DNA from: Akkermansiaceae bacterium
GTDB lineage: Bacteria > Verrucomicrobiota > Verrucomicrobiia > Verrucomicrobiales > Akkermansiaceae
NCBI GenBank assembly: GCA_030725745.1
Contig: JANRFH010000005.1
Span: 1 to 47,694, forward strand
Direction of reading: 5' to 3'
DNA: 47,694 nt
In this document: positions 1 through 14,241 of the stretch, piece after piece
Layout of the letters: each line of letters opens with the position of its first letter
Numbering within the stretch: position 1 is the stretch's first letter
Notes under the pieces: model-generated
Told to the model about the DNA's origin: nothing
What the model saw: the letters and a program-made list of their open reading frames with translations, nothing else
Databases searched by the model: none
Made by a program: the position numbers and the translations under genes

Positions 1-1653
1 CCGGAACAGCAGGAAAAGCGCATGGAGTGGTGGCACGAAGCCAAATTCGGTATGTTCATCCACTGGGGCATCTACTCCGTCGTTGGCGGCCAGTATAAAG
101 GCGAAGAACTCCCCAACAGCGCCGAATGGATGATGTGCCGAGGTAAAATCCCCATCGCTGAATACAAGCAATACGCCGAGCAATTCAACCCGGAGAAATT
201 CGATGCCACCGAGTTCGTCCGCATGGCGAAGGAAGCCGGCATGAAATACATCGTCATCACCGCAAAACACCACGACGGCTTCGCCATGTTCGATTCCGTC
301 TGGGGCGATTACGACGTCGTCGATGCCACACCCTTCAAGCGCGACATCATGAAGGAGCTCTCCCATGCATGCGCCGAGCAGGGGCTGCGCTTCGGCTTCT
401 ACTACTCACAGGCGCAGGACTGGCATCACCCGGGTGGATTCGGGAACAACTGGGACAAGACCATCGAGCGCGTTAGCTCAGATGATTACGTGAACGAGAA
501 AGTCATTCCTGAGGTGAAGCAACTGCTCACCGAATACGGCCCCATTTCCATTCTCTGGTGGGACACCCCACGCGACATGAGCCAAGAGGCGTTCGATAAC
601 ATCTACTCTCTCCGCGACCTCCAGCCCGGCATCATCACCAATGACCGCCTCGGCAAAGACATGCCCGGAGACCACAAAACCTTCGAACGCCACATCCCCG
701 ATCGCGGCCCGGTCGACCAAGCATGGGAAGTCTGCATGCCCATCAGCGGAAGCTGGGGATACAAGAAAATCGACACCGATTTCAAATCCACCAAAGAACT
801 CATCCGCAACCTCGCAGACATCGCCAGCAAAGGCGGCAACTACCTGCTAAACGTCAGCCCCACCGGCGAGGGCGTCGTCCTTTCACAAGCACAGGAACGC
901 CTCAAGGAAATCGGAGCGTGGATGAAGATCAACAGCGAGTCCATCTACGGCACCACCGGTAGCCCCTTTAAGAAACTCGATTGGGGACGTTGCACGAAAA
1001 AACAATACGCCAAAGGCTCCACCCTCTATTTCCACGTCTTCGACTGGCCTGAAGATGGCAAACTCGTCGTCCCCGGTCTGAAAAATGAAATCAAACAAGC
1101 CTACCTCATGGCCGATTGGAAACACCTCGAGACCTCTCAGGACGATTCCGGAACCACCATTTCCCTTCCAGAAAATGCCCCCGACCCAATCAACAGCGTG
1201 GTCGTCGTTCACATCGGCGGCGCCCTCGAAGTCGAGCAATCCGGCATCACCCAAAACGAAGACGGCTCCGTCGACCTGCTCGCCGAAGACGCTTACATCC
1301 ACAACAACGAAGGCAGCCAAAACGCCGCCCTCCAAGACCGTGGTGAAGACCCTTGGAACATTGGCCTCTGGACTGACAAAGAAGCCACCGTCGAGTGGGA
1401 TTTCAAAATCACCGAGCCAACCAGCTTTGAAGTCATCGCCAACATCGCCCTTGAGGAAGACAGTGAACTAACCTTCACGGTCAACGGTGAAACCATCAAA
1501 GCCAAAGTAAAAGCAACCGGTAGCTACGGTGAATACACCGAACAATCACTCGGAAAATTCAGTGTAAAAAGCCCCGGCAATTACAACATCCGCCTCAAGC
1601 CGGAGAAAAACTGGAAGCCGATCAACCTACGTAAGGTCGAATTGAAAAAGTAG
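1..1653 (+). CDS. Alpha-L-fucosidase, GH29 (5' truncated by window edge)
   Basis: Retaining exo-fucosidase that releases alpha-L-fucose from fucans or fucosylated glycans. The reading frame is open to base 1, and the residues before the first ATG (PEQQEKR then MEWW) match the usual lead-in to the GH29 barrel, so the true start and any signal peptide lie upstream of the window. Numbering from the ATG at 22, the GH29 signatures FGMFIHWG, KHHDGFAMF and FYYSQAQDWHHP appear in order. ILWWDTP holds the likely nucleophile Asp181. After the catalytic part (about residues 1-400) comes a beta-sandwich tail with the pattern WNIGLWTDKEATVEW, probably carbohydrate binding. It is followed by a strong hairpin terminator and by a regulator gene on the opposite strand. 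Family assignment is secure; linkage specificity cannot be read from sequence. Confidence 0.93.
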   Translation, partial: PEQQEKRMEWWHEAKFGMFIHWGIYSVVGGQYKGEELPNSAEWMMCRGKIPIAEYKQYAEQFNPEKFDATEFVRMAKEAGMKYIVITAKHHDGFAMFDSVWGDYDVVDATPFKRDIMKELSHACAEQGLRFGFYYSQAQDWHHPGGFGNNWDKTIERVSSDDYVNEKVIPEVKQLLTEYGPISILWWDTPRDMSQEAFDNIYSLRDLQPGIITNDRLGKDMPGDHKTFERHIPDRGPVDQAWEVCMPISGSWGYKKIDTDFKSTKELIRNLADIASKGGNYLLNVSPTGEGVVLSQAQERLKEIGAWMKINSESIYGTTGSPFKKLDWGRCTKKQYAKGSTLYFHVFDWPEDGKLVVPGLKNEIKQAYLMADWKHLETSQDDSGTTISLPENAPDPINSVVVVHIGGALEVEQSGITQNEDGSVDLLAEDAYIHNNEGSQNAALQDRGEDPWNIGLWTDKEATVEWDFKITEPTSFEVIANIALEEDSELTFTVNGETIKAKVKATGSYGEYTEQSLGKFSVKSPGNYNIRLKPEKNWKPINLRKVELKK

Positions 1654-1735: not shown

Positions 1736-2422
1736 TCAGGGGTTTCCCTTTCTAGGTCGTCCGTCGTTTCCGAGCAGACCCATCTCGTGCGCCTTATTGA
1801 TTGCAGCTGGCGAATTAGGCACGTTGAGCTTCTCGAAAATGTGCGCAATGTGGTTGGCGACGGTTTTAGGACTAATATGTAGTTCCACAGCGATCTCCTT
1901 CCTTGTAAGCCCTTGGCTGATGAGCCTGAGAATTTCGGCTTCGCGCTCAGTAACTAAAGAGTCGTCATTGAGGACGGCGGATTCATTTCTTACAGTATTC
2001 AGAATGTAGAGAGCCATCTTAGGATCCACGGATGCCCCGCCTTTTGTGACAGCCTGAATCCCCGATTTCAAATCCTGGATCGATGACGATTTGAGCATAT
2101 ATCCCGCAGCCCCCAGCCTGATTGCAGCAAGAACATCGGCTTCACTTTCAGACTGAGTGAGTATGAGTATCTTAGACCTCGGCGTCAGACTGGCGAGTGA
2201 TGGGAGCGCTTCGATGCCAGAAATACCCGGTAATTTCAGATCAAGTAATACCACATCTGGAAACGTTCGGGTCGCCTCGTTTTGGAGACTTCGTATGGCC
2301 AGTTCCGCCGTTCCAAAAATACCGACCAGCTCCATGGTAGGGTCGTCTTGAAGTGCAAATTGGATGACATGCCGATATTCGTGACTGTCTTCCACAAGCA
2401 TGACTTTGATTTTTTCGTTCAT
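1736..2422 (-). CDS. NarL/FixJ-family response regulator
   Basis: DNA-binding response regulator of a two-component system. The receiver domain spans residues 1-125, with the acidic pocket Glu11-Asp12, phosphoacceptor Asp61 in VVLLDLKLPG, the conserved Thr/Ser of ILTQS and the Lys of GYMLKS. The LuxR-type helix-turn-helix is at about 155-215: LVTEREAEILRLISQG, then TRKEIAVELHISPKTVANHI. The start ATG overlaps the stop of the upstream kinase gene by 4 bases (ATGA), so the two are translationally coupled and almost certainly a cognate pair. Position beside the GH95/SASA/PEP-CTERM genes, and the shared 20-bp box before each of those genes, make it the leading candidate for their regulator. The family call is secure; the target genes are an inference. 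Confidence 0.95.
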   Translation of the reverse strand: MNEKIKVMLVEDSHEYRHVIQFALQDDPTMELVGIFGTAELAIRSLQNEATRTFPDVVLLDLKLPGISGIEALPSLASLTPRSKILILTQSESEADVLAAIRLGAAGYMLKSSSIQDLKSGIQAVTKGGASVDPKMALYILNTVRNESAVLNDDSLVTEREAEILRLISQGLTRKEIAVELHISPKTVANHIAHIFEKLNVPNSPAAINKAHEMGLLGNDGRPRKGNP

Positions 2423-4461
2423 CGCTTTGTTTTTAGGAGGTTTGGAAAATACTTAAGGCGATTTTTCAACTTCAGTGAAATCCGCAAGCCCCCACTCTCT
2501 GGAGTCTCAATGTTAACTTTCGATCCGAGAAATCGAGCCCTACGAGCTAGTGAAGGAGGGACTACACCCTGCTCAGCATCGTGGAATCCACGCCCATTAT
2601 CTGAAATACTCAGCTCGATATAACGCGGATCAGCGTGGATCAGGATATTAACTTCAGTCGCGTCTGCGTGCCTGTTGACGTTGATAAGGCATTCTTTGAA
2701 GAATAGGAAAAAATCGGAGCGCGCGCGAGGTCTCAGCTTCTGGAGGAATTCCTCGCCCTCTACCGTAAAGGTGTAATCAAGATTCGCAATCATTCGACCC
2801 GCAGTCCTTTTAAGATCCGCCAATAGATACTCATGGGGCTCCTTAGCCATTTGCTGGTTACAAAAGTCACGGGTGGCCTCATTCGCCCGGGTAGTCATCA
2901 ATCCGATCTCATCCAATGTCTTGGAGAGCTTATCCGGTGAATCAAGAATGTCCTTTGTGTGTGATCCAAGTATGCCGATCGCGTGCAAGGTCGCCCCAAG
3001 GTGATCGTGGAGATCCGCTGTGAATCTCTCTCTCATGCGTGCAGCCTGACGCATCCGCAGATGTCTACCAATAAGCATCGTCAGTGCTACCAGAATCACC
3101 AGCGCGATAGTCACTCGCTTGAGGATCGATAGAGTCGCTTGTTGTCCATCATAGCGTATACCTAATTGAGCGCTTACAATTACAAGCTCAGCCTCCAGAT
3201 CGTGCCGTCGTGCTAGCTGGTTCATCCAAGTGCGAATTGGTAAAATACGCCCGTAAAAATTGTACCCGTCGGTCAGCTTAGCTAATCCGGGTTCGTTAAT
3301 TCCACTGTCTATACCCTTAATTGCGCCTTTCCGATATGCTACATTCTCGCCAGCTGAAAGAATTTCAATTTCGGCAAAGCCAATCTTATTGCTGCCTTCG
3401 TAGCCAGAGAGTTCTGAGCCTTGATCTGCGGCGGAATCTCCCAATATCCTAATGTAGCGGCATATAGTTTTGGGGGTATTCCATTTCAGAATAGGAGCAA
3501 ACTCCCCGTTATCCTTAAATTTGTGCTTCAGAAGCACTGTGGAATCCGAGAAGTCCGGCTGAGTGGCGCCTTCAACGGTGATGACTTTGGGTATTCCTAT
3601 ATTCACGTTAAACTCTGGAGGAGCGCTCTTGCTTTGATAGGCTGCATGAAGGTTGATCGCTGAGATCAAATACTCCTCCTCCAAATCCAGTGTGATCGCA
3701 GGATGCTCGCTGAGTTCTCGAAAGTGTGCGCTTCCCTCTACTCCTTGAGCCGAATCCATCAGGTATGGCATGCTCCCATCCACAATCAATTCCGGCTTCC
3801 AGATTCCACTATTGCGCGGCACATCCGATGCACAAGTCACCGGTTTATGTAGAGCTACATTTTCTTCTTCACTGAAGACAAGGACTTCGGACAATTGGAA
3901 AATGTATTTCCAGTCTCGCTCTCGTAAAGACAACTTGGTGGGCACAATCCGAATCCATGACGCGCGAACTCCGCGCATCGGAATCACGACAGGAGCCACT
4001 CGAGGCAGAAGCCTGTCAGAAGCGTCGTAACTCGCAACTAGCTCTCCATCAGGATCATTCTCCGTCCCCGCAATGATGCTGAATGCTTCTGGAAAACCAT
4101 CAGAATGATAACCCTCCTCGTCATTGTAACGCCAGAGTGTTGGGACTAATACGATCTCGTCCAAGGCAGCTTCCTCCTGAAGATCAATCCGTATCCATTC
4201 CCCTTCAATATCGGGGCTTGATTGCGGAAAAGAGCGATATCCCGAAGTTCCGAGCGCTCCCGTTCTAAGACTAAATAAGGCAAGCTGATCCAATTCCGCC
4301 TTGATCGTATCCCGCCTCTCCTCGAGTTCGGAAACGGTCATTTGATCGTGAGACTCCTCAGCCCATAGGATTCCAGTCACGAAATAAATGCCCGAGAGCA
4401 AAACAAGGGTCACTCGCTTGTGAGCAAAAGAATTCACTCTTATGTTTTGTTTTCCTAACAT
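2419..4461 (-). CDS. Sensor histidine kinase (NarX-type) with discoidin-like periplasmic sensor domains
   Basis: Membrane sensor kinase of 680 residues. An N-terminal signal/anchor segment (about 15-35) is followed by some 380 residues of exported sensor. This part holds at least two F5/8-type-C (discoidin, galactose-binding-like) modules at about 55-200 and 205-370; one has the typical ENVALHKPVT entry and a C-terminal FAEIEIL strand, and another ENVAYRKGA entry follows. A single membrane helix (about 447-467, IALVILVALTMLIG) leads to a HisKA_3 dimerisation domain with RERFTADLHDHLG (His485 as phosphate acceptor) and a C-terminal HATPase domain with FFKECLINVNRHA and ISDNGRGF. Discoidin folds often bind sugars, so direct sensing of a released oligosaccharide is plausible but inferred. 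It is divergent from the GH95 gene. Confidence 0.92.
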   Translation of the reverse strand: MLGKQNIRVNSFAHKRVTLVLLSGIYFVTGILWAEESHDQMTVSELEERRDTIKAELDQLALFSLRTGALGTSGYRSFPQSSPDIEGEWIRIDLQEEAALDEIVLVPTLWRYNDEEGYHSDGFPEAFSIIAGTENDPDGELVASYDASDRLLPRVAPVVIPMRGVRASWIRIVPTKLSLRERDWKYIFQLSEVLVFSEEENVALHKPVTCASDVPRNSGIWKPELIVDGSMPYLMDSAQGVEGSAHFRELSEHPAITLDLEEEYLISAINLHAAYQSKSAPPEFNVNIGIPKVITVEGATQPDFSDSTVLLKHKFKDNGEFAPILKWNTPKTICRYIRILGDSAADQGSELSGYEGSNKIGFAEIEILSAGENVAYRKGAIKGIDSGINEPGLAKLTDGYNFYGRILPIRTWMNQLARRHDLEAELVIVSAQLGIRYDGQQATLSILKRVTIALVILVALTMLIGRHLRMRQAARMRERFTADLHDHLGATLHAIGILGSHTKDILDSPDKLSKTLDEIGLMTTRANEATRDFCNQQMAKEPHEYLLADLKRTAGRMIANLDYTFTVEGEEFLQKLRPRARSDFFLFFKECLINVNRHADATEVNILIHADPRYIELSISDNGRGFHDAEQGVVPPSLARRARFLGSKVNIETPESGGLRISLKLKNRLKYFPNLLKTKR

Positions 4462-4503: not shown

Positions 4504-4523
4504 CAAGGAACAAAAGACCCATA
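4504..4523 (+). promoter_or_regulatory. Conserved 20-bp box, copy 1 (candidate operator)
   Basis: The sequence CAAGGAACAAAAGACCCATA lies between the divergent kinase and GH95 genes, about 157 bases before the GH95 ATG. It shares the 14-base core ACAAAAGACCCATA and an upstream GG at the same spacing with copies at 7006 and 11033. Its position could also allow feedback control of the kinase-regulator pair. Confidence 0.7.
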
Positions 4524-4570: not shown

Positions 4571-4590
4571 GGGAATTCTTGTCAATTCCC
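4571..4590. promoter_or_regulatory. Perfect 7-bp inverted repeat in the GH95 leader
   Basis: GGGAATT-CTTGTC-AATTCCC lies about 90 bases before the GH95 start and downstream of the 20-bp box. It could be a second protein-binding site or a leader hairpin. No T tract follows, so it is not a terminator. The function is unknown. Confidence 0.35.
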
Positions 4591-4680
4591 GCAACGGAAA
4601 TTGCCGTCCTACGCTAATCCAAAATTCCATAAAACAAGACGATCACTTACGTTTCGTTTTTCGCACGTTCATCAAGATTC

Positions 4681-6969
4681 ATGAAATTCCCAATCCTTCT
4701 TTCTCTCCTTGGACTGCAGTTCAGCATCATGGCTGAGCCTATTTCCGAAAATTCCACTCACCGCGAAGTCCTCCAAATTGACTGGCCAAGTTTCATTGGT
4801 AAGCAGGATCTGTATTGGAACACCCTCCCACAAGAATGGAATCAAGCTCCATTCATTGGCAATGGCATGATGGGTAGCATGATTTTCCGACAGGACGATC
4901 ATCATCTGGTCATCCAGCTTGGTCGCTCGGATGTGCAGGATCACCGTATGGAGGACGGAAAACATGAGGTTCCCGGCCGTGCCATCCCAAACCAGTCCCG
5001 CCTCCCTATCGGCTACTTCACACTAAAAACCGCGGGTAAACTCAAAGACTGCGACCTTAGGCTCAACCTATGGGATGCCGAGATCAGCGGCAAAATACGT
5101 ACCGAAGTAGGCGAGATTGACCTCATAGCGGTCATGCACTCAGGTAAGGATCTCCTCGCTCTCCGAGCAACTCCCAGCAAAAGGGAATCCTCCTTTTCAA
5201 TCCGCTGGCATCCTGAGGAGGCCTTCTGCCCTCGCATCAAAGACCGCCGAGCAGGTGGCAAGAGCTACATCGATGAATACTTCGGCTCCCCGCTACCTGT
5301 CTTCTCCAATGAAGGAGAAGTTATACTCTGCATCCAAGACCTAATCGCAGGCGGCCAAACGACAACTGCTTGGAGCGTGAAACATGGCGACCACGACAGC
5401 CAAACCCTATATGCAAGCGTCGGCCATTCCTTCCCCGAAAATACCGCAACGGAAACCGCCACCAATGTCGTCAAGGATGCCCTCGACTCGGACTTCAGCG
5501 AACACTTGGAGACCCACCGTCCGTGGTGGAATGAATTCTATACGAAAAGTTACGTCTCGATCCCAGATGCCCGACTCGAGAGCTTTTTCTGGATCCAGCA
5601 CTACAAAATGGCCTGTGCCACCATGGGTGGACGAGCACTGGCCGACAATCAAGGCCCATGGCTCCAACCAACCGGATGGCCCGCTCTTTGGTGGAATCTA
5701 AACGTCCAACTAGCATACTCCCACATGCTCCCGGCCAATCATCCGGAGCTTTCAATTGGACTGCTCAATCATCTGGTAAAGTATCAGCACAATCTCGAAA
5801 AAAACGTCCCGGAAGGTATGGAAGATTCCATAAACCTCAACACCAACTCGGGTCAGGATCTGCTTTCCCCCATGGATCACCCTCTCAAGAAGCCGAAGCA
5901 AAGCGCCGGTAACATGACCTGGGTCATGCACAACTGTTACATGCAATACCGATACACCATGGATGAGGACATTCTCCGTGAGAAAATTTTCCCGCTACTA
6001 CGGAAGTCCATCAACTTCTACCGCCATATTCTTGAGGAAGGTGATGATGGCAAGCTTCACCTGCCACCCCTAGCCTCGCCTGAATACGGTCATGCGGCGG
6101 ACTGCAACTACGACCTCGCCCTGCTCCGTTGGGGCTGCCAGACCTTGATTGATTCCTGCAATATTCTCAAAATCCAAGATACGCTGCTTCCCGAGTGGAA
6201 AGATATCCTCGCCCGGCTCACCGACTATCCAATCGATGAAACCGGATTCATGATCGGCAAAGACATGCCCTACGCGAGGTCGCACCGTCATTACTCTCAC
6301 CTGATGATGATCTATCCGCTCTCCACCTTCAGCCCCGACCTACCGGAGAACCGAAAACTCATCGAGAAATCCATCAACCACTGGTTCAGCTACCCCAAAG
6401 GACTCGCCGGCTATTCATTCACCGGATCCTCCTCCATGTATTCCATTCTCGGAAATGGAGAGATGGCCGAGAAACGCTTGCAGGATTTCCTCAATGACAA
6501 AGTCCACCCAAACACTTTTTACTCCGAAAGCTCCCCAGTTATCGAGACTCCACCCGCTGGCGCGCGCTCAATCGAGGACATGCTAATTCAGAGCTGGGGA
6601 GATCGCATCCGAGTGTTGCCAGCGATTCCAGACAAATGGAAAAACGTCTCATTTGCCGACCTACGAACCGAAGGTGCCTTCCTCATCAGCGCCAAGCGGG
6701 AAAACGGAAAGACCGTCTTCGTCGCCATCAAAAGCCTAGCTGGCGCTCCTTGCCGTATCCAGACTGGTATTGAAGGAGAAATCCTCGTGACTGGCCTTGA
6801 GGACGACAAGATCCGAGACTTGGGTAACGGAATCCTTGAATTGGACATTCCCGCAAACGCTCAGGTTATTGTGTCCTCGAAATCTCTCGCTCCTGATCAG
6901 GCTCAATGGGTGATCACACCATCTAAGCAAGACAACAGGTCAGATTGGCAGTGGGGCATGGAGAACTGA
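4681..6969 (+). CDS. Exported GH95 alpha-L-fucosidase (or alpha-L-galactosidase)
   Basis: Inverting exo-hydrolase of family GH95, typically removing 1,2-linked alpha-L-fucose. The 762-residue protein opens with a clear signal peptide (MKFPILLSLLGLQFSIMAEP). An N-terminal beta-sandwich includes APFIGNGMMGSMIF, and an (alpha/alpha)6 barrel carries LLSPMDHP, LPPLASPEYGHAADCN (Glu468 is the likely general acid) and RSHRHYSHLMMIYPLSTF, matching the HRHVSHL block of the family. A GARSIEDMLIQSWGD block and a small C-terminal beta domain follow. It is the first gene downstream of the two-component system, divergent from it, and carries the 20-bp box in its leader. A GH95 subgroup acting on L-galactose exists, so the exact sugar is not certain. 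Confidence 0.88.
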   Translation: MKFPILLSLLGLQFSIMAEPISENSTHREVLQIDWPSFIGKQDLYWNTLPQEWNQAPFIGNGMMGSMIFRQDDHHLVIQLGRSDVQDHRMEDGKHEVPGRAIPNQSRLPIGYFTLKTAGKLKDCDLRLNLWDAEISGKIRTEVGEIDLIAVMHSGKDLLALRATPSKRESSFSIRWHPEEAFCPRIKDRRAGGKSYIDEYFGSPLPVFSNEGEVILCIQDLIAGGQTTTAWSVKHGDHDSQTLYASVGHSFPENTATETATNVVKDALDSDFSEHLETHRPWWNEFYTKSYVSIPDARLESFFWIQHYKMACATMGGRALADNQGPWLQPTGWPALWWNLNVQLAYSHMLPANHPELSIGLLNHLVKYQHNLEKNVPEGMEDSINLNTNSGQDLLSPMDHPLKKPKQSAGNMTWVMHNCYMQYRYTMDEDILREKIFPLLRKSINFYRHILEEGDDGKLHLPPLASPEYGHAADCNYDLALLRWGCQTLIDSCNILKIQDTLLPEWKDILARLTDYPIDETGFMIGKDMPYARSHRHYSHLMMIYPLSTFSPDLPENRKLIEKSINHWFSYPKGLAGYSFTGSSSMYSILGNGEMAEKRLQDFLNDKVHPNTFYSESSPVIETPPAGARSIEDMLIQSWGDRIRVLPAIPDKWKNVSFADLRTEGAFLISAKRENGKTVFVAIKSLAGAPCRIQTGIEGEILVTGLEDDKIRDLGNGILELDIPANAQVIVSSKSLAPDQAQWVITPSKQDNRSDWQWGMEN

Positions 6970-7005: not shown

Positions 7006-7025
7006 TGTGGCACAAAAGACCCATA
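7006..7025 (+). promoter_or_regulatory. Conserved 20-bp box, copy 2 (candidate operator)
   Basis: TGTGGCACAAAAGACCCATA lies about 151 bases before the SASA gene. The 14-base core is identical to the other two copies. An AT-rich TAGAAT element 26 bases further on is a possible -10 box, consistent with an activator site upstream of the promoter. Confidence 0.7.
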
Positions 7026-7176: not shown

Positions 7177-10100
7177 TTGAAAACCACTTCCCTCCAGCTT
7201 CCTCGGCACCTCACCGCAGCGATTCTCTCGTTTCAATTTGCTACCTTAGGAACAGCACTCGCTGCCGACTTTATATGGGACAACAGCGACGCGGATAATG
7301 ATTACTCCAATCCATCAAACTGGATCGGAAACGTGGCTCCTGCTGCCGGCAACACTAACTATGCAGTCATTGATCTGACCGGTGGCGACAAAGCCATTTT
7401 CAGCAGTGGAACGAGTGCAAATCTCGCTGGCATCAGAATCGGCTACAACGGTGCTGACGGAGAATTCCACCAAACAGGCGGAACCCTGAATCTTAGCAAC
7501 GGCGGAGCCAGCCGCATCGGCCGCAATGGTGAAGTCGGCACTTATCTCATGACTGGAGGAACGGCTTTCCACAATGCCATTCAGCTGGGTCTGGGCAGTA
7601 GTGGAGCTGGCAACATGACAATCACCGGCGGCGATATGACCATTGTCCGCGGCGCGGGAACCGGAACCTCTAGCTTGATCGTCGATTTCGGCAGCGGCAG
7701 TGTTGCCGGTAATTTCGAAATCTCCGGCGGCTCCCTGCAAACGCGCACGGATATCATCATCGGGGACAACGGCACCTTTTCCGTTCTTGGTAGCGATGCG
7801 ACCAGCATTGGGATCGGCACTTACGAAAGCCTCGATGGACAATGGGTTCAGGAAGCCGGCGGCACACTGCGATGCCGCATCGCCGATACGGCCGCAGGCA
7901 TCACCAAGATCGTTGTAGCGGACAAAGGTGACGCCGGTGACGGAGACGGAAATGTGACTTTCGAAGAAGGCGCGCTGCTGGATGTCGGTTTCCTCGGCGC
8001 TGATGTCGAAGGAGAATGGGACCTCATGAGTTGGGACGGCACACTTACGGACAACGGACTGACTTTTGCTCCCGGAGTTGACCCCACCGTCTGGAGCTTC
8101 GATTTCGTCGATACCGATTCTTCAGGCTCTCCGGACACGTTGCGTGTCAAAACCGGCAGCATCGTCGAGACAAAGGAATTCACCTACGATGCCAATGCGG
8201 GAAACGTAAATCTGCCAGCAGTCTCGGGAGCTTACAGTGGCGATGCCAGTGCCACCGACCATATCAACGATGGCGTCAGCACCTTCGAATCAGAGATCCA
8301 AACCACCAGCGTTAATTTCGGCCCCGCTGGCTTGAATGACGGAACCGCCCTGGGTACTGGAAATATTCTCAACACCTACTATGACAACACGAAGTTCCCT
8401 GCCACGGTCACTTTCGCATTGGACACCGGCATCGTGCCTTCCGGTTACGACATCACTGGCATCACCACCATCGCGGGCTGGGAAAAGAACGGAGCGAATC
8501 TTGCCAATCAGGTTTATGAGGTATGGATCAGCACGGTGGGTGATCCGGACTTCAATTTGCTGCATACCGTGAACTACAAGCCGTTCACCAGCACCGGTCT
8601 GAATGGCAACACAGGCTCCACCAAGGTGAACCTCACCAATGATGGCGGCATCCTGGCCAATGGGGTGGACGAGATCCGCTTCGTCTTCCTCGACGACGGC
8701 GAGAACTTCGGCGCCGTCGACGGAACAGTATATCAGGAAATAGACATCTTCAGCTCCACCGCCCCTCCGCCGGTGCTGGTGACCAGTGAAATGTTCGGAA
8801 GCTCCATGGTGCTTCAACGGGACATGGATGTGCCAATCTGGGGTTCTGCACCGGCCGACGCGGAGATTACTTTGAAAGTCGATGGCACGACAGTGACGAC
8901 CACCACTGCGGACAATTCAGGAAAATGGATGGCTCAGCTCGGTTCGTATCCTGGTGATGGCGGGCAACCACATGTGATCACCATTTCCACCCCGGGCGAA
9001 GCGGATGTCGTGCTCAAAGACGTTGTCTTTGGCGATGTCTACATCGCCTCCGGACAATCCAACATGGCGCGCTCCCTCACTGGTGTGGGAGCTAGCGCTG
9101 AGATCACCGCGGCAAACTTTCCTCTAATCCGTCAAATCAAGATGGCCGAGGTGACTTCTTCAAGCGAAAAGGATGATCCAACGGTTCAATACAACTGGAC
9201 GGTGTGCAGTCCACCCGTTGCTGGCAATTTCTGCGCGGTTGCTTACTTTTTCGCAAAGGAATTGCAGGCCACTACAGGAGAGCCTGTTGGCATTCTTTTT
9301 TCCGCATGGGGTGGCCGTACCATCGAGCGCTTCATCAATCCAGAAGGGCTTGCCGCCGTCCCATCATTGTCAGGTGTCCTTCAGAACAGGGAAGACGGCA
9401 ATATCTCCGGCTATTCTGACATTTATAACGCCATGATCGCCCCGATGAGCCCATACGCCGTGCGTGGCACCCTCTGGTATCAAGGTGAACAAAACGCCAG
9501 CGCCGGAGATGGTGATATCTATCAGCTCAAGATGCGTGCACTCATCCGCGGCTGGCGCGAAAAATGGGGACAAGACGACTTCTCCTTCTACTGGGTACAG
9601 TTGCCTAATTTCATCACCACTGCTAATTGGCCTGCGATCCGCGATGCCCAGACGAAGGCTCTCTCGGAGCCAGACACCGGCATGGCAATTATCATCGATG
9701 CAGGCAACGACAACGACATCCATCCCACAAACAAGCAAGAACCCGGAGAACGGCTCGCCAGCCTCGCTCTAGTTGATGATTTTGGACAATCCAACGTTGC
9801 CAGCGGCCCTCTATTTCATGCCTCCGTAATTGAAGGTTCCCAAATCCGATTGCACTTCGATCATGTCGGAAGTGGATTGATCGTCGGGACTAAGAGCGGC
9901 AGTAATCCTGTCGTCGAAACTGCCGGAACCCTACAGAATTTCGAGATCGCAGGTGCCGACAAGATATTCGTGGAAGCCGTTGCATTGATTGATGGTCTTA
10001 ACGTCGTCGTATCCAGCCCATCCGTCCCCAGCCCTCTCTACGTTCGATATTGTTACTCCAATGCCCCCACCGGCGGCAACAAACTCTATAACCAAGCCCT

Positions 10101-10983
10101 GCTCCCCGCTTCTCCATTTCGCACCGATTTGGATTACGAAATTGAAGTCTATTCAGGAACCGGAAGCGGCACTGGATTACTAGCCGGCACCACGCAATCC
10201 ATCATCGCAGATCCTCCAGCCTCAGGCATGGTCTTTGACCGCTGGATTGGCAGTGCTGCACTGGCAGATCCCAATGCAGCTTCGACCACACTCACCATGC
10301 CCGTGCACGACCTCTACCTGGTTGCCAGCTACAGGGCATCCGGTGACACCAGCTACCCGATCACGGTCAACAACGGCTTCGGTAGCGGAACTTCCCAGAG
10401 CGACTCCATCATCAACATCGAAGCACAAACTCCCGCCGCAGGCATGATCTTCGACCAGTGGAGCGGAGATACTGGAACCGTGGCCAATATCCACGCCCCT
10501 GTGACTACCTTACGCATGCCCTCAGCAAACACTTCCGTCACAGCGGTCTTCAAACCAGCAAGCACAGTTGGCGATGGCATTCCCGACAGCTGGAGAGCGC
10601 TCCACTTCGGCGGAAACGGCACAACGACGAACAGTTTATCCACAGCAGGCGCGGATCCTGATAACGACGGCCAAAATAACCTTGAGGAATACAAGGCAGG
10701 CACTGATCCCAACGACCCCAACTCGGTCTTTGAAATTACCCTTTTCGAAGTGGATAATGACTTGATCACCATCGATTTTACGACCGAAGCCTTCAATCGC
10801 TATATAATTCAAGGCAGTGAATCCTTACTGCTTGGATCGTGGGAAGCCGAGTCGGGCGAGATCGTGGGAGACGGACAGCATATTCGCTTCGAGTTCGCGC
10901 CCGGCAGTGCTCCTCACTATTTCTACCGGGTCTTAAATACCTTGGAGATATCTATACCTCCTGAAGGCTTGAAGAACCCTTGA
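7177..10983 (+). CDS. Large exported multidomain protein with SASA (sialate O-acetylesterase-type) esterase
   Basis: Secreted 1268-residue mosaic, probably deacetylating the polysaccharide. The start is TTG and is chosen because a good signal peptide follows (to about residue 29). Order of parts: a beta-solenoid with repeated TGG/SGG turns (30-325); a beta-domain with GYDITGITTIAGW (325-528); an Ig-like strand block and the SASA/SGNH esterase (about 534-980); two InlB-like B repeats with AGMIFDQWSGD-type motifs (985-1127); and a C-terminal Ca-binding-like DPDNDGQNNLEEYKAGTDP module with a final beta domain. The esterase has nucleophile Ser628 in YIASGQSNMA, the GTLWYQGEQNA block and Asp847/His849 in NDNDIHP. 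The 20-bp box precedes it. The first two modules recur in the two PEP-CTERM proteins of this window. The natural substrate may be any O-acetylated sugar, not sialate. Confidence 0.9.
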   Translation: MKTTSLQLPRHLTAAILSFQFATLGTALAADFIWDNSDADNDYSNPSNWIGNVAPAAGNTNYAVIDLTGGDKAIFSSGTSANLAGIRIGYNGADGEFHQTGGTLNLSNGGASRIGRNGEVGTYLMTGGTAFHNAIQLGLGSSGAGNMTITGGDMTIVRGAGTGTSSLIVDFGSGSVAGNFEISGGSLQTRTDIIIGDNGTFSVLGSDATSIGIGTYESLDGQWVQEAGGTLRCRIADTAAGITKIVVADKGDAGDGDGNVTFEEGALLDVGFLGADVEGEWDLMSWDGTLTDNGLTFAPGVDPTVWSFDFVDTDSSGSPDTLRVKTGSIVETKEFTYDANAGNVNLPAVSGAYSGDASATDHINDGVSTFESEIQTTSVNFGPAGLNDGTALGTGNILNTYYDNTKFPATVTFALDTGIVPSGYDITGITTIAGWEKNGANLANQVYEVWISTVGDPDFNLLHTVNYKPFTSTGLNGNTGSTKVNLTNDGGILANGVDEIRFVFLDDGENFGAVDGTVYQEIDIFSSTAPPPVLVTSEMFGSSMVLQRDMDVPIWGSAPADAEITLKVDGTTVTTTTADNSGKWMAQLGSYPGDGGQPHVITISTPGEADVVLKDVVFGDVYIASGQSNMARSLTGVGASAEITAANFPLIRQIKMAEVTSSSEKDDPTVQYNWTVCSPPVAGNFCAVAYFFAKELQATTGEPVGILFSAWGGRTIERFINPEGLAAVPSLSGVLQNREDGNISGYSDIYNAMIAPMSPYAVRGTLWYQGEQNASAGDGDIYQLKMRALIRGWREKWGQDDFSFYWVQLPNFITTANWPAIRDAQTKALSEPDTGMAIIIDAGNDNDIHPTNKQEPGERLASLALVDDFGQSNVASGPLFHASVIEGSQIRLHFDHVGSGLIVGTKSGSNPVVETAGTLQNFEIAGADKIFVEAVALIDGLNVVVSSPSVPSPLYVRYCYSNAPTGGNKLYNQALLPASPFRTDLDYEIEVYSGTGSGTGLLAGTTQSIIADPPASGMVFDRWIGSAALADPNAASTTLTMPVHDLYLVASYRASGDTSYPITVNNGFGSGTSQSDSIINIEAQTPAAGMIFDQWSGDTGTVANIHAPVTTLRMPSANTSVTAVFKPASTVGDGIPDSWRALHFGGNGTTTNSLSTAGADPDNDGQNNLEEYKAGTDPNDPNSVFEITLFEVDNDLITIDFTTEAFNRYIIQGSESLLLGSWEAESGEIVGDGQHIRFEFAPGSAPHYFYRVLNTLEISIPPEGLKNP

Positions 10984-11032: not shown

Positions 11033-11052
11033 TATGGGACAAAAGACCCATA
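11033..11052 (+). promoter_or_regulatory. Conserved 20-bp box, copy 3 (candidate operator, most symmetric)
   Basis: TATGGGACAAAAGACCCATA has matching TATGGG and CCCATA arms around an 8-base centre, the symmetry expected for a dimeric regulator. A TAAATT element 21 bases downstream may be the -10 box. If so, translation of the next gene must start at 11150 and not at the earlier in-frame starts. Confidence 0.72.
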
Positions 11053-11149: not shown

Positions 11150-12253
11150 ATGTTCAATAAAAACACACGATTAATCTTAGCGGCAAGCACTCTTGGCTTG
11201 CTCTCATCAGGAGTTGATTCAAAAGCTGCCGGAGTCTTTTCAGGTATTACAGGTGATGGCACTTCTTGGGAAGATGCAGGCAACTGGGACGACGGCATCG
11301 TCCCTGTTAGCGGGGCTGCTAATACCTTCAACATCTTCCAAAATAGAACTGCAGATTTTGATGCTGATGCTTGGGCAGCAGTGACTAAGAGTAGTGTTCC
11401 TGCGACTCTTGGGCAATACACTGGTATTACACGTTTTTTCATGGGAGAGAGCACCGCTGGTGGTAACAACGGTAGTCATGTTATGAATTTTAATCCCGGT
11501 GCCGGTGCCATTATGAATGTGACAGCAAGCCAATCAGGAGGCATCTCTACACGGCCGGGCAAGAACGGTACATTGAATGTTCAAAGTGGCTCTTTATTGA
11601 TGGGCTCGAGTACATTCTCAATCGGGAATGTAGCCACTGGAGCCGCAGCCAATGGAGCCATCAACGTCAGTGGTGGGGAGTTGAGTTTTTACCGCGCACC
11701 CGTTACTCTTGGTAATTCTACTGCTGGTGCCGTTGGTACTGGTGCAATCACTGTTTCAGGTGGCGCATTCACCACACGAACTTCACTTACTTTAAACTCA
11801 ACAGGAAGCTTCAATGTGGTTGGTAGCAACGCTACACAAATCGGAATTGGAGCTGCTGGTACTGATGGTAACGGTGCTTGGTCTCAGGCTTCGGGTGCGA
11901 CTTTGAGCATGATGATTGATACTTCAGTCACAAAAATCTTCATCGAGGATGGAAGTATTGCCGGTGTCGGATCTGCAGTGTTTTCCGCAGGTTCAATCCT
12001 AGATCTCGGATTCGTCGGTGCTTTTGCGAATGGAGACTATACGCTCATGGAATTCGAAAACGGCGACATCGACAATGGTGTTTCAAATGATAACCTTTTG
12101 CTTAATTCTGCTGATGCCTTAGCTGGATGGTCATACAGAATCGATAACACAGGAGCTAACGGCTTGCTCATTGCAACATTCGTTCCTGAGCCTAGTACTG
12201 CTTTACTTAGCTTTAGTGCCCTTGGAATGCTACTTTTACGCCGTCGTAGGTAA
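11150..12253 (+). CDS. PEP-CTERM beta-solenoid protein
   Basis: Exported surface or matrix protein of 367 residues, probably held at the envelope by the PEP-CTERM/exosortase route. The start at 11150 is chosen because MFNKNTRLILAASTLGLLSS is a proper signal peptide; an in-frame TTG at 11078 and ATG at 11084 would bury it. The body begins GDGTSWEDAGNWDDG and continues with Gly-rich beta repeats (NVSGGELSF, TVSGGAFTT). A block GSFNVVGSNATQIGIG parallels GTFSVLGSDATSIGIG of the preceding SASA protein, so the two are paralogous over most of this protein. The end is classic: VPEPSTALLS, a hydrophobic helix and RRRR. The gene is visibly AT-richer with more T-ending codons than its neighbours. No enzymatic motif is seen. 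Confidence 0.85.
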   Translation: MFNKNTRLILAASTLGLLSSGVDSKAAGVFSGITGDGTSWEDAGNWDDGIVPVSGAANTFNIFQNRTADFDADAWAAVTKSSVPATLGQYTGITRFFMGESTAGGNNGSHVMNFNPGAGAIMNVTASQSGGISTRPGKNGTLNVQSGSLLMGSSTFSIGNVATGAAANGAINVSGGELSFYRAPVTLGNSTAGAVGTGAITVSGGAFTTRTSLTLNSTGSFNVVGSNATQIGIGAAGTDGNGAWSQASGATLSMMIDTSVTKIFIEDGSIAGVGSAVFSAGSILDLGFVGAFANGDYTLMEFENGDIDNGVSNDNLLLNSADALAGWSYRIDNTGANGLLIATFVPEPSTALLSFSALGMLLLRRRR

Positions 12254-12281: not shown

Positions 12282-12315
12282 AACTGCGTTGCCGTATAGG
12301 CAACGCAGTTTTTTT
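12282..12315 (+). terminator. Strong rho-independent terminator
   Basis: A perfect 12-bp stem (AACTGCGTTGCC and GGCAACGCAGTT) around a 5-base loop is followed by a T tract. It ends the PEP-CTERM transcript and separates it from the GH97 gene. Confidence 0.92.
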
Positions 12316-12387: not shown

Positions 12388-14241
12388 ATGACTTCCGGAC
12401 ATAGAATTCTCATTTCCGCTATCTCAATTTCTGCCCTCGGTTCCATTCATGCCGAAGAAACCAACGCAGCCACTCTATCTGTATCGTCGCCGGACGGTCA
12501 GACATCAATTAGCTTTGTGTTAGCAGAACAAGGCGCCCCTACCTACTCGGTATCCTACGACGGAAAACCCATCCTCCTTAGCTCTGCTCTGGGGGTAAAA
12601 CTGAAGGGTGATGCAAACCTCACGGAAGGTTTTGCCATCGGCAGCACTTCCACCAGCAGCAAGGACGAAACTTGGAAGCCCCTCACCGGTGAACGCAGCG
12701 AAATCCGTGATCATTACAACGAGCTTACCGTTGATCTCAAGAAGGACGAAAAGCCTGCCCTGCAGATCAAATTTCGTGCATATGACGAAGGCATCGCCTT
12801 CCGCTACGTCTTTCCCGAAGAAACCGGCTCATTCACAATTACCGAGGAGCTCACACAGTTTAGTTTCGCAGACGACCACTTCTGCTGGGACACCAAAGAT
12901 CCTCAGCATGTCTACCAGCGCGTCCCTATTTCCAAAGCAGGCCGGGATATCGAACGCCCCCTCGTCGTCGAGGTCGGCGACAGCCCATTCGTAGCACTCG
13001 GAGAAGCTCGCATGGTCGACTACGCCCGCCTCCGCTACAACACTCCTGCCGCAAATACCTTCGGCATCGAACTCGGCAGTGATGTCGTAGCCAACGCTCC
13101 ATACGCCTCCCCATGGCGCTATATTATGATTGGAGATACCCCCGGCGAACTTCTCGAAAACAACGACCTCCTCGTAAATCTCAATGACCCCTGCGCCATC
13201 GAAGACACCTCATGGATCAAACCCGGCAAAGTCATCCGCTCAGAATTAAACACGAAAGTCGCCAAGGAAACCATCGACTGGGCAGTGGAAATGAACGCTG
13301 GCTACATCCTCCTCGATGCCGGCTGGTATGGTAACGAAATGGACAACAAGTCCGATGCTACTACCGTAACCATCGATCCTAAACGCTACAGCGGAGAGCT
13401 CGATATGCAGGCAGTTATCGATTACGGCAAGCAACACGACATCGGAGTCATCGTCTACGTCAACCGCCGTGCTCTGGAGAAGCAACTCGATGAATTACTC
13501 CCCCTTTTCCAAGAATGGGGCATCGCTGGCATCAAGTTCGGCTTCGTCAATGTCGGTTCACAGCATTGGACAAATTGGATGCACGACGCTGTGAAAAAGT
13601 GCGCAGAATATAAGATGATCGTCGATATCCACGACGACTACCGCCCGACCGGATGGAGCCGCACCTACCCAAACCTCCTCACTCAGGAAGGAGTCCATGG
13701 CAACGAAGAGATGCCCACCGCCAAGGACAACGTCCTACTCCCCTTCACCCGCTTCCTCTGTGGCGCTGCCGACTACACGGTTTGCTACTATAGCTCGCGC
13801 GTTCAAGCCACCCGCGCCCATCAGCTCGCCGCATCCATCGTTTACTACAGCCCCATCCAGCTCATTTTCTGGTATGACAAGCCCTCACAGTTCAAGAACG
13901 AGCCGGAGCTGGACGTCTTCAAACAAGTCCCCACCATCTGGGACGACACCAAGGTTCTCCATGGAGAAATGGAAAAATTCGTCTCTATCGCGCGCCGCAC
14001 TGGCGACAAGTGGTTCATCGGCACCATGAACGCCGGCGAACCCCGCAAGCTGGAAATCAAACTAGATTTCCTCAAACCCGGCATCAACTACACCGCCGAC
14101 ATCAAGTCTGATACTTACCCCGACGGGAGCGATCGCACAAAGGTTACGAACTCAAGTAAAACTGTTACCTCAGAAAGTGTCCTCACCGCAGACATGGCTC
14201 ACAACGGCGGGCAGGCGATCATCCTGACCCCCGAAAAGTAG
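12388..14241 (+). CDS. Exported GH97 glycoside hydrolase
   Basis: GH97 enzymes are alpha-glucosidases or alpha-galactosidases. The 617-residue protein has a signal peptide (cleavage near IHAEE), the N-terminal beta-supersandwich (LSVSSPDGQTSISFVL, IKFRAYDEGIAFRYVF), the catalytic barrel (YILLDAGWYG, IKFGFVNVGSQHW, VDIHDDYRPTGWSRTYPNLLTQEGVHG) and a C-terminal beta domain. Gly385 in IKFGF stands where retaining members carry the nucleophile Asp, and the DIHDDYRP loop has Asp where the SusB-type inverting branch has a base Glu. It therefore fits neither textbook pattern exactly and may belong to the little-characterised DIHD-E/D-YRPTG subgroup. It sits between two strong terminators, so it is a single-gene unit. 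Family is secure; substrate and mechanism are open. Confidence 0.9.
   Translation: MTSGHRILISAISISALGSIHAEETNAATLSVSSPDGQTSISFVLAEQGAPTYSVSYDGKPILLSSALGVKLKGDANLTEGFAIGSTSTSSKDETWKPLTGERSEIRDHYNELTVDLKKDEKPALQIKFRAYDEGIAFRYVFPEETGSFTITEELTQFSFADDHFCWDTKDPQHVYQRVPISKAGRDIERPLVVEVGDSPFVALGEARMVDYARLRYNTPAANTFGIELGSDVVANAPYASPWRYIMIGDTPGELLENNDLLVNLNDPCAIEDTSWIKPGKVIRSELNTKVAKETIDWAVEMNAGYILLDAGWYGNEMDNKSDATTVTIDPKRYSGELDMQAVIDYGKQHDIGVIVYVNRRALEKQLDELLPLFQEWGIAGIKFGFVNVGSQHWTNWMHDAVKKCAEYKMIVDIHDDYRPTGWSRTYPNLLTQEGVHGNEEMPTAKDNVLLPFTRFLCGAADYTVCYYSSRVQATRAHQLAASIVYYSPIQLIFWYDKPSQFKNEPELDVFKQVPTIWDDTKVLHGEMEKFVSIARRTGDKWFIGTMNAGEPRKLEIKLDFLKPGINYTADIKSDTYPDGSDRTKVTNSSKTVTSESVLTADMAHNGGQAIILTPEK

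Follow-up and report, generated by a model that had tools for sequence, protein, structure and literature searches.

A discoidin-domain sensor kinase and its NarL-type regulator as a probable local switch for glycan and surface-protein genes in an Akkermansiaceae bacterium

The stretch of DNA analyzed here, hereafter the window, comprises the 47,694 nucleotides of contig JANRFH010000005.1 from an Akkermansiaceae bacterium (Verrucomicrobiota; assembly GCA_030725745.1), and is one entire contig of a 3.42-Mb draft genome (G000). It codes for a sensor histidine kinase and a response regulator (Table 1), whose genes are joined by an overlap of the regulator ATG with the kinase TGA as ATGA; this bears out the overlap on which a preliminary description of the locus had based translational coupling, as do the coordinates its further statement that the kinase gene is divergent from that of an enzyme of glycoside hydrolase (GH) family GH95. 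The pair is a HisKA_3/NarL system, a known kind, but carries an unusual sensor. The fold of this sensor, the gene pair itself, the distribution of a 20-bp operator-like element and a link between that element and the recognition helix of the regulator form the computed basis on which we consider it probable that the pair is a local two-component switch, with a glycan ligand, phosphotransfer and a regulon of three sites.

Searches of Pfam with the kinase recovered F5_F8_type_C at residues 79-176 (24.5 bits; cut-off 28.2), F5_F8_type_C_2 at residues 251-289 (18.6 bits; cut-off 27.8), HisKA_3 at residues 477-535 (20.4 bits; cut-off 24) and HATPase_c at residues 587-665 (20.8 bits; cut-off 26.4); since all four matches fall under the curated cut-offs, the evidence from the single sequence is suggestive at most. 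With a profile of 60 family sequences, lectin and discoidin domains of solved structure were matched at E-values down to 2.4e-4, among them hPAF and fucolectin-related lectins, the discoidin domains of neuropilins and CBM32 modules. An AlphaFold2 model of residues 36-447 built with 60 sequences has a mean predicted local distance difference test score of 88.7 and a predicted template modeling score of 0.89. Residues 34-165 and 207-335 of this model align with CBM32/discoidin structures with VIA-align Z-scores of up to 10.7 and 9.8 respectively, and Foldseek finds matches of the same kind on both modeled domains (E to 6.6e-07). Thus, the structure prediction that the preliminary description had called for recovers the galactose-binding-like beta-sandwich of discoidin and CBM32 modules in both domains, and the exported half of the kinase is, as modeled, composed of two domains of this fold. 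The F5/8-type-C-like modules previously proposed to precede the HisKA_3 core hence stand, whereas the length given for the exported part, about 380 residues, has to be raised to about 410. In the full-length model domain 2 is followed by a stalk, and a single helix (409-504) spans the membrane segment and extends as far as the kinase core. While the fold is common to CBM32/F5-8 type C modules, here it serves as the input of a kinase sensor rather than as the substrate-binding module of a secreted enzyme. When compared with the six further full-length copies of the kinase in the same genome (39-43% identity overall), domain 2 is 31-39% and domain 1 37-50% identical, domain 2 being lower in all six; in the two intact orthologs the domains are nearly even (domains 1/2: 66/65% in genome G274 and 72/66% in genome G710). 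Such divergence among paralogs but not orthologs points to domain 2 as the better candidate for the part conferring ligand specificity.

Scanning a genome collection for related kinases we obtained, among the best 80 matches, at least 20 loci at 38-43% identity, which we term subfamily A; a further set at about 23-29% identity makes up subfamily B. Examination of 54 aligned sequences revealed that the phosphoacceptor histidine H485 and the adjacent D486 are invariant, as are E590, N594, H598, D621 and G623 in the N and G1 boxes. The G2 lid motif, GxG[LIM], is not present in the window kinase; in subfamily A, e.g. at 2458-2600(-) of the window, (V)P.SL.RRA takes the place of the G2 motif of the ATP lid. 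The regulator matches the Response_reg (68.9 bits; cut-off 30.2) and GerE (67.0 bits; cut-off 23.5) models of Pfam, and thus combines the receiver (REC) and LuxR-type helix-turn-helix (HTH) domains of the NarL/FixJ regulators; D12, D61, T89 and K111 can be read from its sequence, and its recognition helix is PKTVANHIAHIFEKL, with VANH as the motif residues.

The 14-mer ACAAAAGACCCATA was first spotted by reading the intergenic stretches of the window. It has three exact matches in the genome, all in the window, which lie upstream of the kinase and GH95 genes, of a gene coding for a SASA-type esterase and of one coding for a PEP-CTERM surface protein. These belong to a 20-bp element of the form TATGGG-N8-CCCATA (Table 1). 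When one mismatch is allowed, the pattern TATGGGNCTTTTGTNCC has three matches in the 3.42-Mb genome; each of them is exact and lies in the window, as against about 0.006 exact matches expected. Only 15-21 of 60 flanking bases agree between the three sites, and as the similarity ends at the element this is not a duplicated promoter. Orthologs of the kinase in genomes G274 (66% identity), G710 (69%) and G665 (58%) carry TATGGGGCTTTTGTCCCATG directly upstream of the kinase gene, where it is the sole site of the respective genome at up to one mismatch. Likewise, TATGGGNCTTTTGTNCC recovers one match at up to one mismatch in G274, which is exact and upstream of the kinase (the reversed-pattern control had none in the search of G000 and G274), and one exact match each in G710 and G665, again upstream of the kinase (reversed control: one and none respectively). 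The element therefore remains with the kinase gene across four genomes while the neighbors change, which suggests that it goes with the regulator and not with any one target gene. Taken together, the 20-bp element is probably the operator bound by the regulator, and its shared presence makes direct control of GH95, earlier inferred from divergence alone, likely. In G665 (locus L266) a stop splits the kinase frame into pieces of 432 and 228 amino acids, with the upstream element intact.

Our first candidate for the operator had been a perfect 7-6-7 dyad, GGGAATTCTTGTCAATTCCC (4571-4590), which was dropped for want of a close second copy: neither the window (3 matches at up to three mismatches, with 2.9 expected) nor ten other 20-kb stretches of the genome contained one, the orthologous loci not having been searched for it. 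A near-perfect 21-bp dyad (4583-4603) overlaps it in the kinase/GH95 intergenic stretch, and both are unlike the family operator described below. Perhaps another regulator of GH95 binds at these two dyads.

Table 1. Features of the kinase-regulator locus; coordinates refer to the window unless given as kinase residues.
Feature	Position	Strand	Basis or remarks
GH29 alpha-L-fucosidase, truncated at contig end, convergent with regulator	1..1653	+	Pfam
NarL/FixJ-type response regulator, 228 aa	1736..2422	-	open frame; Pfam
Sensor histidine kinase, 680 aa	2419..4461	-	open frame; Pfam; models
HisKA_3 (H485) and HATPase core (N594, D621, G623, G625), without G2 lid motif	2458..3051	-	Pfam; alignment
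Predicted discoidin/CBM32-fold domain 2, kinase residues 201-372	3346..3861	-	profile; VIA-align
Predicted discoidin/CBM32-fold domain 1, kinase residues 69-200	3862..4257	-	model, VIA-align; profile match to neuropilin discoidin domains
Signal anchor	kinase residues ~17-34		read from sequence
Helix	kinase residues 43-59		model
Transmembrane helix	kinase residues ~446-464		read from sequence
Probable operator 1, TATGGGTCTTTTGTTCCTTG	4504..4523	-	kinase (centre -52) / GH95 (centre -167)
GH95-family enzyme, probable target	4681..6969	+	Pfam; remote PDB matches
Probable operator 2, TATGGGTCTTTTGTGCCACA	7006..7025	-	upstream of SASA gene, centre -161
Exported SASA-type esterase, N-terminal region akin to PEP-CTERM protein, probable target	7177..10983	+	Pfam; comparison
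Probable operator 3, TATGGGTCTTTTGTCCCATA	11033..11052	-	107 bp upstream of likely PEP-CTERM ATG
PEP-CTERM surface protein, probable target	11150..12253	+	likely ATG at 11150
GH97 enzyme	12388..14241	+	Pfam; 71% identical copy at G710 locus

A related dyad, first noticed by eye in lists of palindromes, occurs across the family. When the upstream regions of 28 subfamily A kinases were searched for palindromic motifs from random starts, TAYCC-N10-GGRTR with a T-rich core was recovered (log-likelihood 78.6, versus 33.2-38.9 in five shuffled sets). The window locus obtained no score in this search; its element has the 20-bp frame, the TAT end and the TTT position of the family dyad, with GGG replacing CC. 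The first gene upstream of the kinase is divergent in 27 of 34 subfamily A loci as compared with 16 of 29 in subfamily B, and in 17 of 22 loci searched for dyads both starts are available. The distance from the center of the dyad to the divergent start is 69-135 bp at 13 of these 17 and 167-296 bp at the other four, the window and G274 being in the latter group. Dyads of paralogs in the window's genome can be restricted to a single place there: that of L007 (TATGAC...GTCATG, beginning with TATGACAC) at up to three mismatches and that of L002 (beginning with TACCCCCC) at up to two each have one site, upstream of their own kinase, and the divergent genes in these cases code for a PEP-CTERM protein and a sulfatase respectively. 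In the search of the 22 loci, 27 of 51 matches lay upstream of genes (control: 2.5 of 24.6), a count that overstates the recurrence because the loci had been picked for the dyad or the window element and the defining sites are included.

Alignment of the regulators revealed that a residue of the recognition helix tracks the bases at positions 3 and 4 of the dyad. We propose a code in which, for the helix motif TV-a-X-H, X=T goes with TC (TATC), X=D, E or Y with CC (TACC) and X=N with TG (TATG), while F in place of H also gives TG. Sites were chosen blind to X in a set of 46 loci, from which L023 and L173 had been removed for lack of a regulator, L024 because its regulator is cut and L066 because of its short upstream region. 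Whichever of three thresholds was applied (34, 22 and 14 of the 46 loci), none of 5000 permutations reached the observed association. The site score gives bonuses for T1, A2, T19, a pyrimidine at position 3 and a TTT core, and hence favors family-like sites, with no bonus for any base at position 4. The rules were written after this first set and before a held-out set was drawn. Of the 85 kinase matches in the latter, 38 were set aside (25 duplicates of first-set loci or of one another, nine without a regulator, two cut or without a helix match, and two with short upstream regions), leaving 47 usable loci, 27 of which gave no scored prediction while the other 20 combined a prediction with a site scoring at least 8. 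Seventeen of these 20 predictions were right, the misses being L201 and L215 (TDH with TATCCC) and L256; for the TC, CC and TG classes 16 of 19 were right, as against a permutation mean of 10.5, with 17 of 10,000 permutations doing as well, although related regulators are not independent of each other and both the permutation and the held-out figures are accordingly upper bounds on the strength. No clear site was recovered at L006 or for regulators with the helices VATY, VDSH and VVSH. These observations incline us, by a small margin, to the view that a modular family found in Verrucomicrobiota and some Planctomycetota controls glycan or surface-protein loci, with each pair using its own dyad in the adjacent promoter region and paralogs being insulated from one another by a few residues of the recognition helix. 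If this were true, regulons and sensor-target pairs could be read from sequence.

For the window we favor the following mechanism. A periplasmic ligand, most likely a fragment of a glycan, would be bound by the tandem discoidin-like domains, and the signal would pass via the stalk and the membrane helix to the HisKA_3 core, which might then phosphorylate D61 of the regulator from H485. A dimer of the regulator would bind TATGGG-N8-CCCATA at the three places and thereby control its own operon along with the GH95, SASA esterase and PEP-CTERM genes, the effect being assumed to be activation.

Several observations weigh against this interpretation. The GxG[LIM] motif is absent in 26 of the 27 subfamily A members with DNGxG (29 examined), while 15 of 27 such members of subfamily B (65 examined) have it; with the G2 lid missing, it is uncertain whether the protein is active as a kinase. 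The statistics of the window depend on exact matching. If one mismatch is allowed, ACAAAAGACCCATA has four matches in the genome, the fourth being on contig C15, as compared to two for the reversed control. Within the window, the three matches found at up to three mismatches and the five matches of the dyad pattern were each reached by 7 of 100 shuffles, and the kinase-side copy is so asymmetric that at least two other dyads in the same upstream region outrank it. Across the family, 24 of the 46 loci score under 8, and the window is not among the 22 that pass. Only a minority of loci, namely the window, L054 and L171, clearly have further copies in front of additional genes; with group patterns they are also seen at L053, L063, L067 and L068. 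Finally, sulfatases or tested glycosidases are neighbors of the kinase in 23 of 29 subfamily A loci, but also occur in 12 of 20 arbitrary stretches (p = 0.20) drawn from seven of these sulfatase-rich genomes that contain such kinases; one of the stretches (L180) itself has a family kinase. This background undid what had earlier been taken as evidence for glycan-sensing, namely the contrast with 4 of 22 loci in subfamily B and none of 10 for other kinases. As the neighbors are not above background, it is the fold, together with the genes at this locus that bear the operator, on which the link to glycans is based. A Pfam search with the alignment of neighbors identified 12 sulfatases among 68, a sample that is not unbiased as it consists of 67 of 132 genes, two per locus chosen by eye, and one outside gene.

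The alternative that survives best is that the pair monitors the exopolysaccharide or envelope of the cell itself and adjusts the levels of PEP-CTERM and repeat-type surface proteins, with the enzymes as passengers. Consistent with this, each of the four orthologous loci, window included, has a PEP-CTERM gene on its divergent side (that of G274 codes for a 37% homolog of the window protein); the paralog L018, whose kinase is the same as that of L007, has a single operator between the kinase and a PEP-CTERM gene; and other divergent genes code for PKD, cadherin-like and repeat proteins, though several have no Pfam match. However, the upstream regions of GH95 and the SASA gene also bear the element, and elsewhere the divergent gene codes for a TonB receptor or a sulfatase. 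We regard a sensor of this type as rather doubtful here. It is also unlikely that the discoidin-like domains bind a protein partner or the membrane instead of a sugar, as do their relatives in neuropilin and factor VIII. Although both of these proteins figure among the profile and fold matches, the best VIA-align matches are sugar-binding CBM32 modules, and the setting is one of glycan enzymes, even if not above background.

A narrower version of the glycan reading, in which the sensor recognizes fucose or fucosyl oligosaccharides released by GH29 and GH95, can be offered in view of the two enzymes flanking the pair, the element upstream of GH95 and the profile matches of domain 2 to fucolectin-related proteins. 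Nevertheless, the orthologous loci of G710, G274 and G665 show GH97 (once, in G710) or sulfatases together with the PEP-CTERM gene, and no GH29 or GH95 was seen in the stretches of 40, 20 and 14.7 kb around these three kinases. Among the four loci GH95 is thus seen only in the window, which argues against fucose as a conserved signal and leaves a released fucosyl product unsupported in that role. Ten of 29 subfamily A loci have GH29 or GH95 no more than 9 kb away, as against 5 of 20 arbitrary stretches with one of the two, and CBM32 modules of other specificities have the same fold, leading us to consider fucose an improbable ligand. That the dyad belongs to another transcription factor, with the kinase-regulator pair as a bystander, is least probable of all, since despite two of the three window sites being imperfect dyads, and a second, unlike dyad being present in the same kinase/GH95 intergenic stretch, the site accompanies the kinase gene through four genomes with differing neighbors and its bases track the recognition helix, held-out loci included.

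The proposed glycan-responsive switch shares with HisKA_3/NarL systems such as DesK-DesR, VraS-VraR, NarX-NarL and UhpB-UhpA the phosphoacceptor region, the N and G1 boxes, the REC-LuxR architecture of the regulator and the adjacency of the genes; VraS and DesK are the nearest solved kinases by sequence. It differs from them in the exported tandem discoidin-like sensor, the lack of the G2 lid and the 20-bp dyad with its TTT core; the sites recognized by NarL are heptamers. In Bacteroidota, hybrid two-component systems with periplasmic sensors control polysaccharide loci locally. The present pair resembles them in such local control of a glycan locus by a kinase with a periplasmic sensor, but whereas the hybrids combine kinase, receiver and HTH in one chain, here there are two separate genes and a discoidin-like sensor.

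In the open-access literature searched, the regulation of glycan loci in Verrucomicrobiota and Planctomycetota is little treated. The passage on Pontiella agarivorans in PMC10880615 notes that kinases with PF07730/PF02518 and regulators with PF00072 are in some cases close to sulfatases and GHs, and links such pairs with glycan loci as a possibility; that passage gives no sensor domain, operator or specificity rule. The excerpts of PMC5615132 name regulators in glycan loci in general terms, and those of PMC4807772 mention regulators in general terms only, while PMC7356697 and PMC8857213 contained none of the regulator or sensor words sought. No paper pairing a discoidin, F5 8 type C, CBM32 or galactose-binding domain with a histidine kinase was found among the papers listed in these searches, in which the slash form F5/8 is unsearchable. 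Within the reach of the same searches, both the operator and the helix rule are new. A sensor family with a predicted fold, a probable operator and a specificity rule yields testable predictions on the genes controlled by each copy of the pair in this genome and on the pairing of sensors with glycans, and its regulators could serve as orthogonal parts.

The hosts of subfamily A among the matches listed include Opitutales, other Opitutae, Pontiellaceae, Pelagicoccus, Puniceicoccaceae, Akkermansiaceae, Rhodopirellula and Mariniblastus, and the regulator follows the kinase within 600 bp in 27 of the 28 other subfamily A loci examined. In a sample of the phylum, for which three candidates per genome were scored, 13 of 387 genomes, the window genome included, match at E <= 1e-90. 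In the family of the window's genome 35 of 259 genomes match, and in the family of G261 five of 29, with 15, 12, 11, 10 and 3 matches. Thus, the kinase family is patchy and strongly multiplied in certain genomes.

Beyond the genes discussed above, the strand opposite to the kinase codes for GH95, the SASA and PEP-CTERM proteins, GH97, a beta-helix/PDZ protein, a major facilitator superfamily carrier, a ROK protein and GH92, past which lie sulfatases, a tripartite ATP-independent periplasmic (TRAP) transporter, GH3 and GH79. The N-terminal region of the SASA protein (7483-8064) is homologous to the PEP-CTERM protein (34%, E 4e-21), suggesting that one surface module is present in two operator-bearing genes. 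Between the PEP-CTERM and GH97 genes a perfect 12-bp inverted repeat with a 5-nt loop, followed by a T run (12282-12310), is likely to be a terminator, in which case GH97 may have its own promoter; a scan for sigma-70 promoters and terminators gave no excess over shuffles.

Upstream dyads of other kinds were also encountered. The subfamily B kinases (L008, L071-L124) have a different one, approximately ATCnCGAnATnTCGnGAT, with a log-likelihood of 61.8 versus 34-42 for shuffled sets in a collection that contains near-identical loci. At L171, where the regulator helix is VAAH, two YATAGAAC...GTTCTAT dyads (17847 and 18092) lie between the kinase and the divergent gene, and L229, with the helix IAAH, has a similar site.

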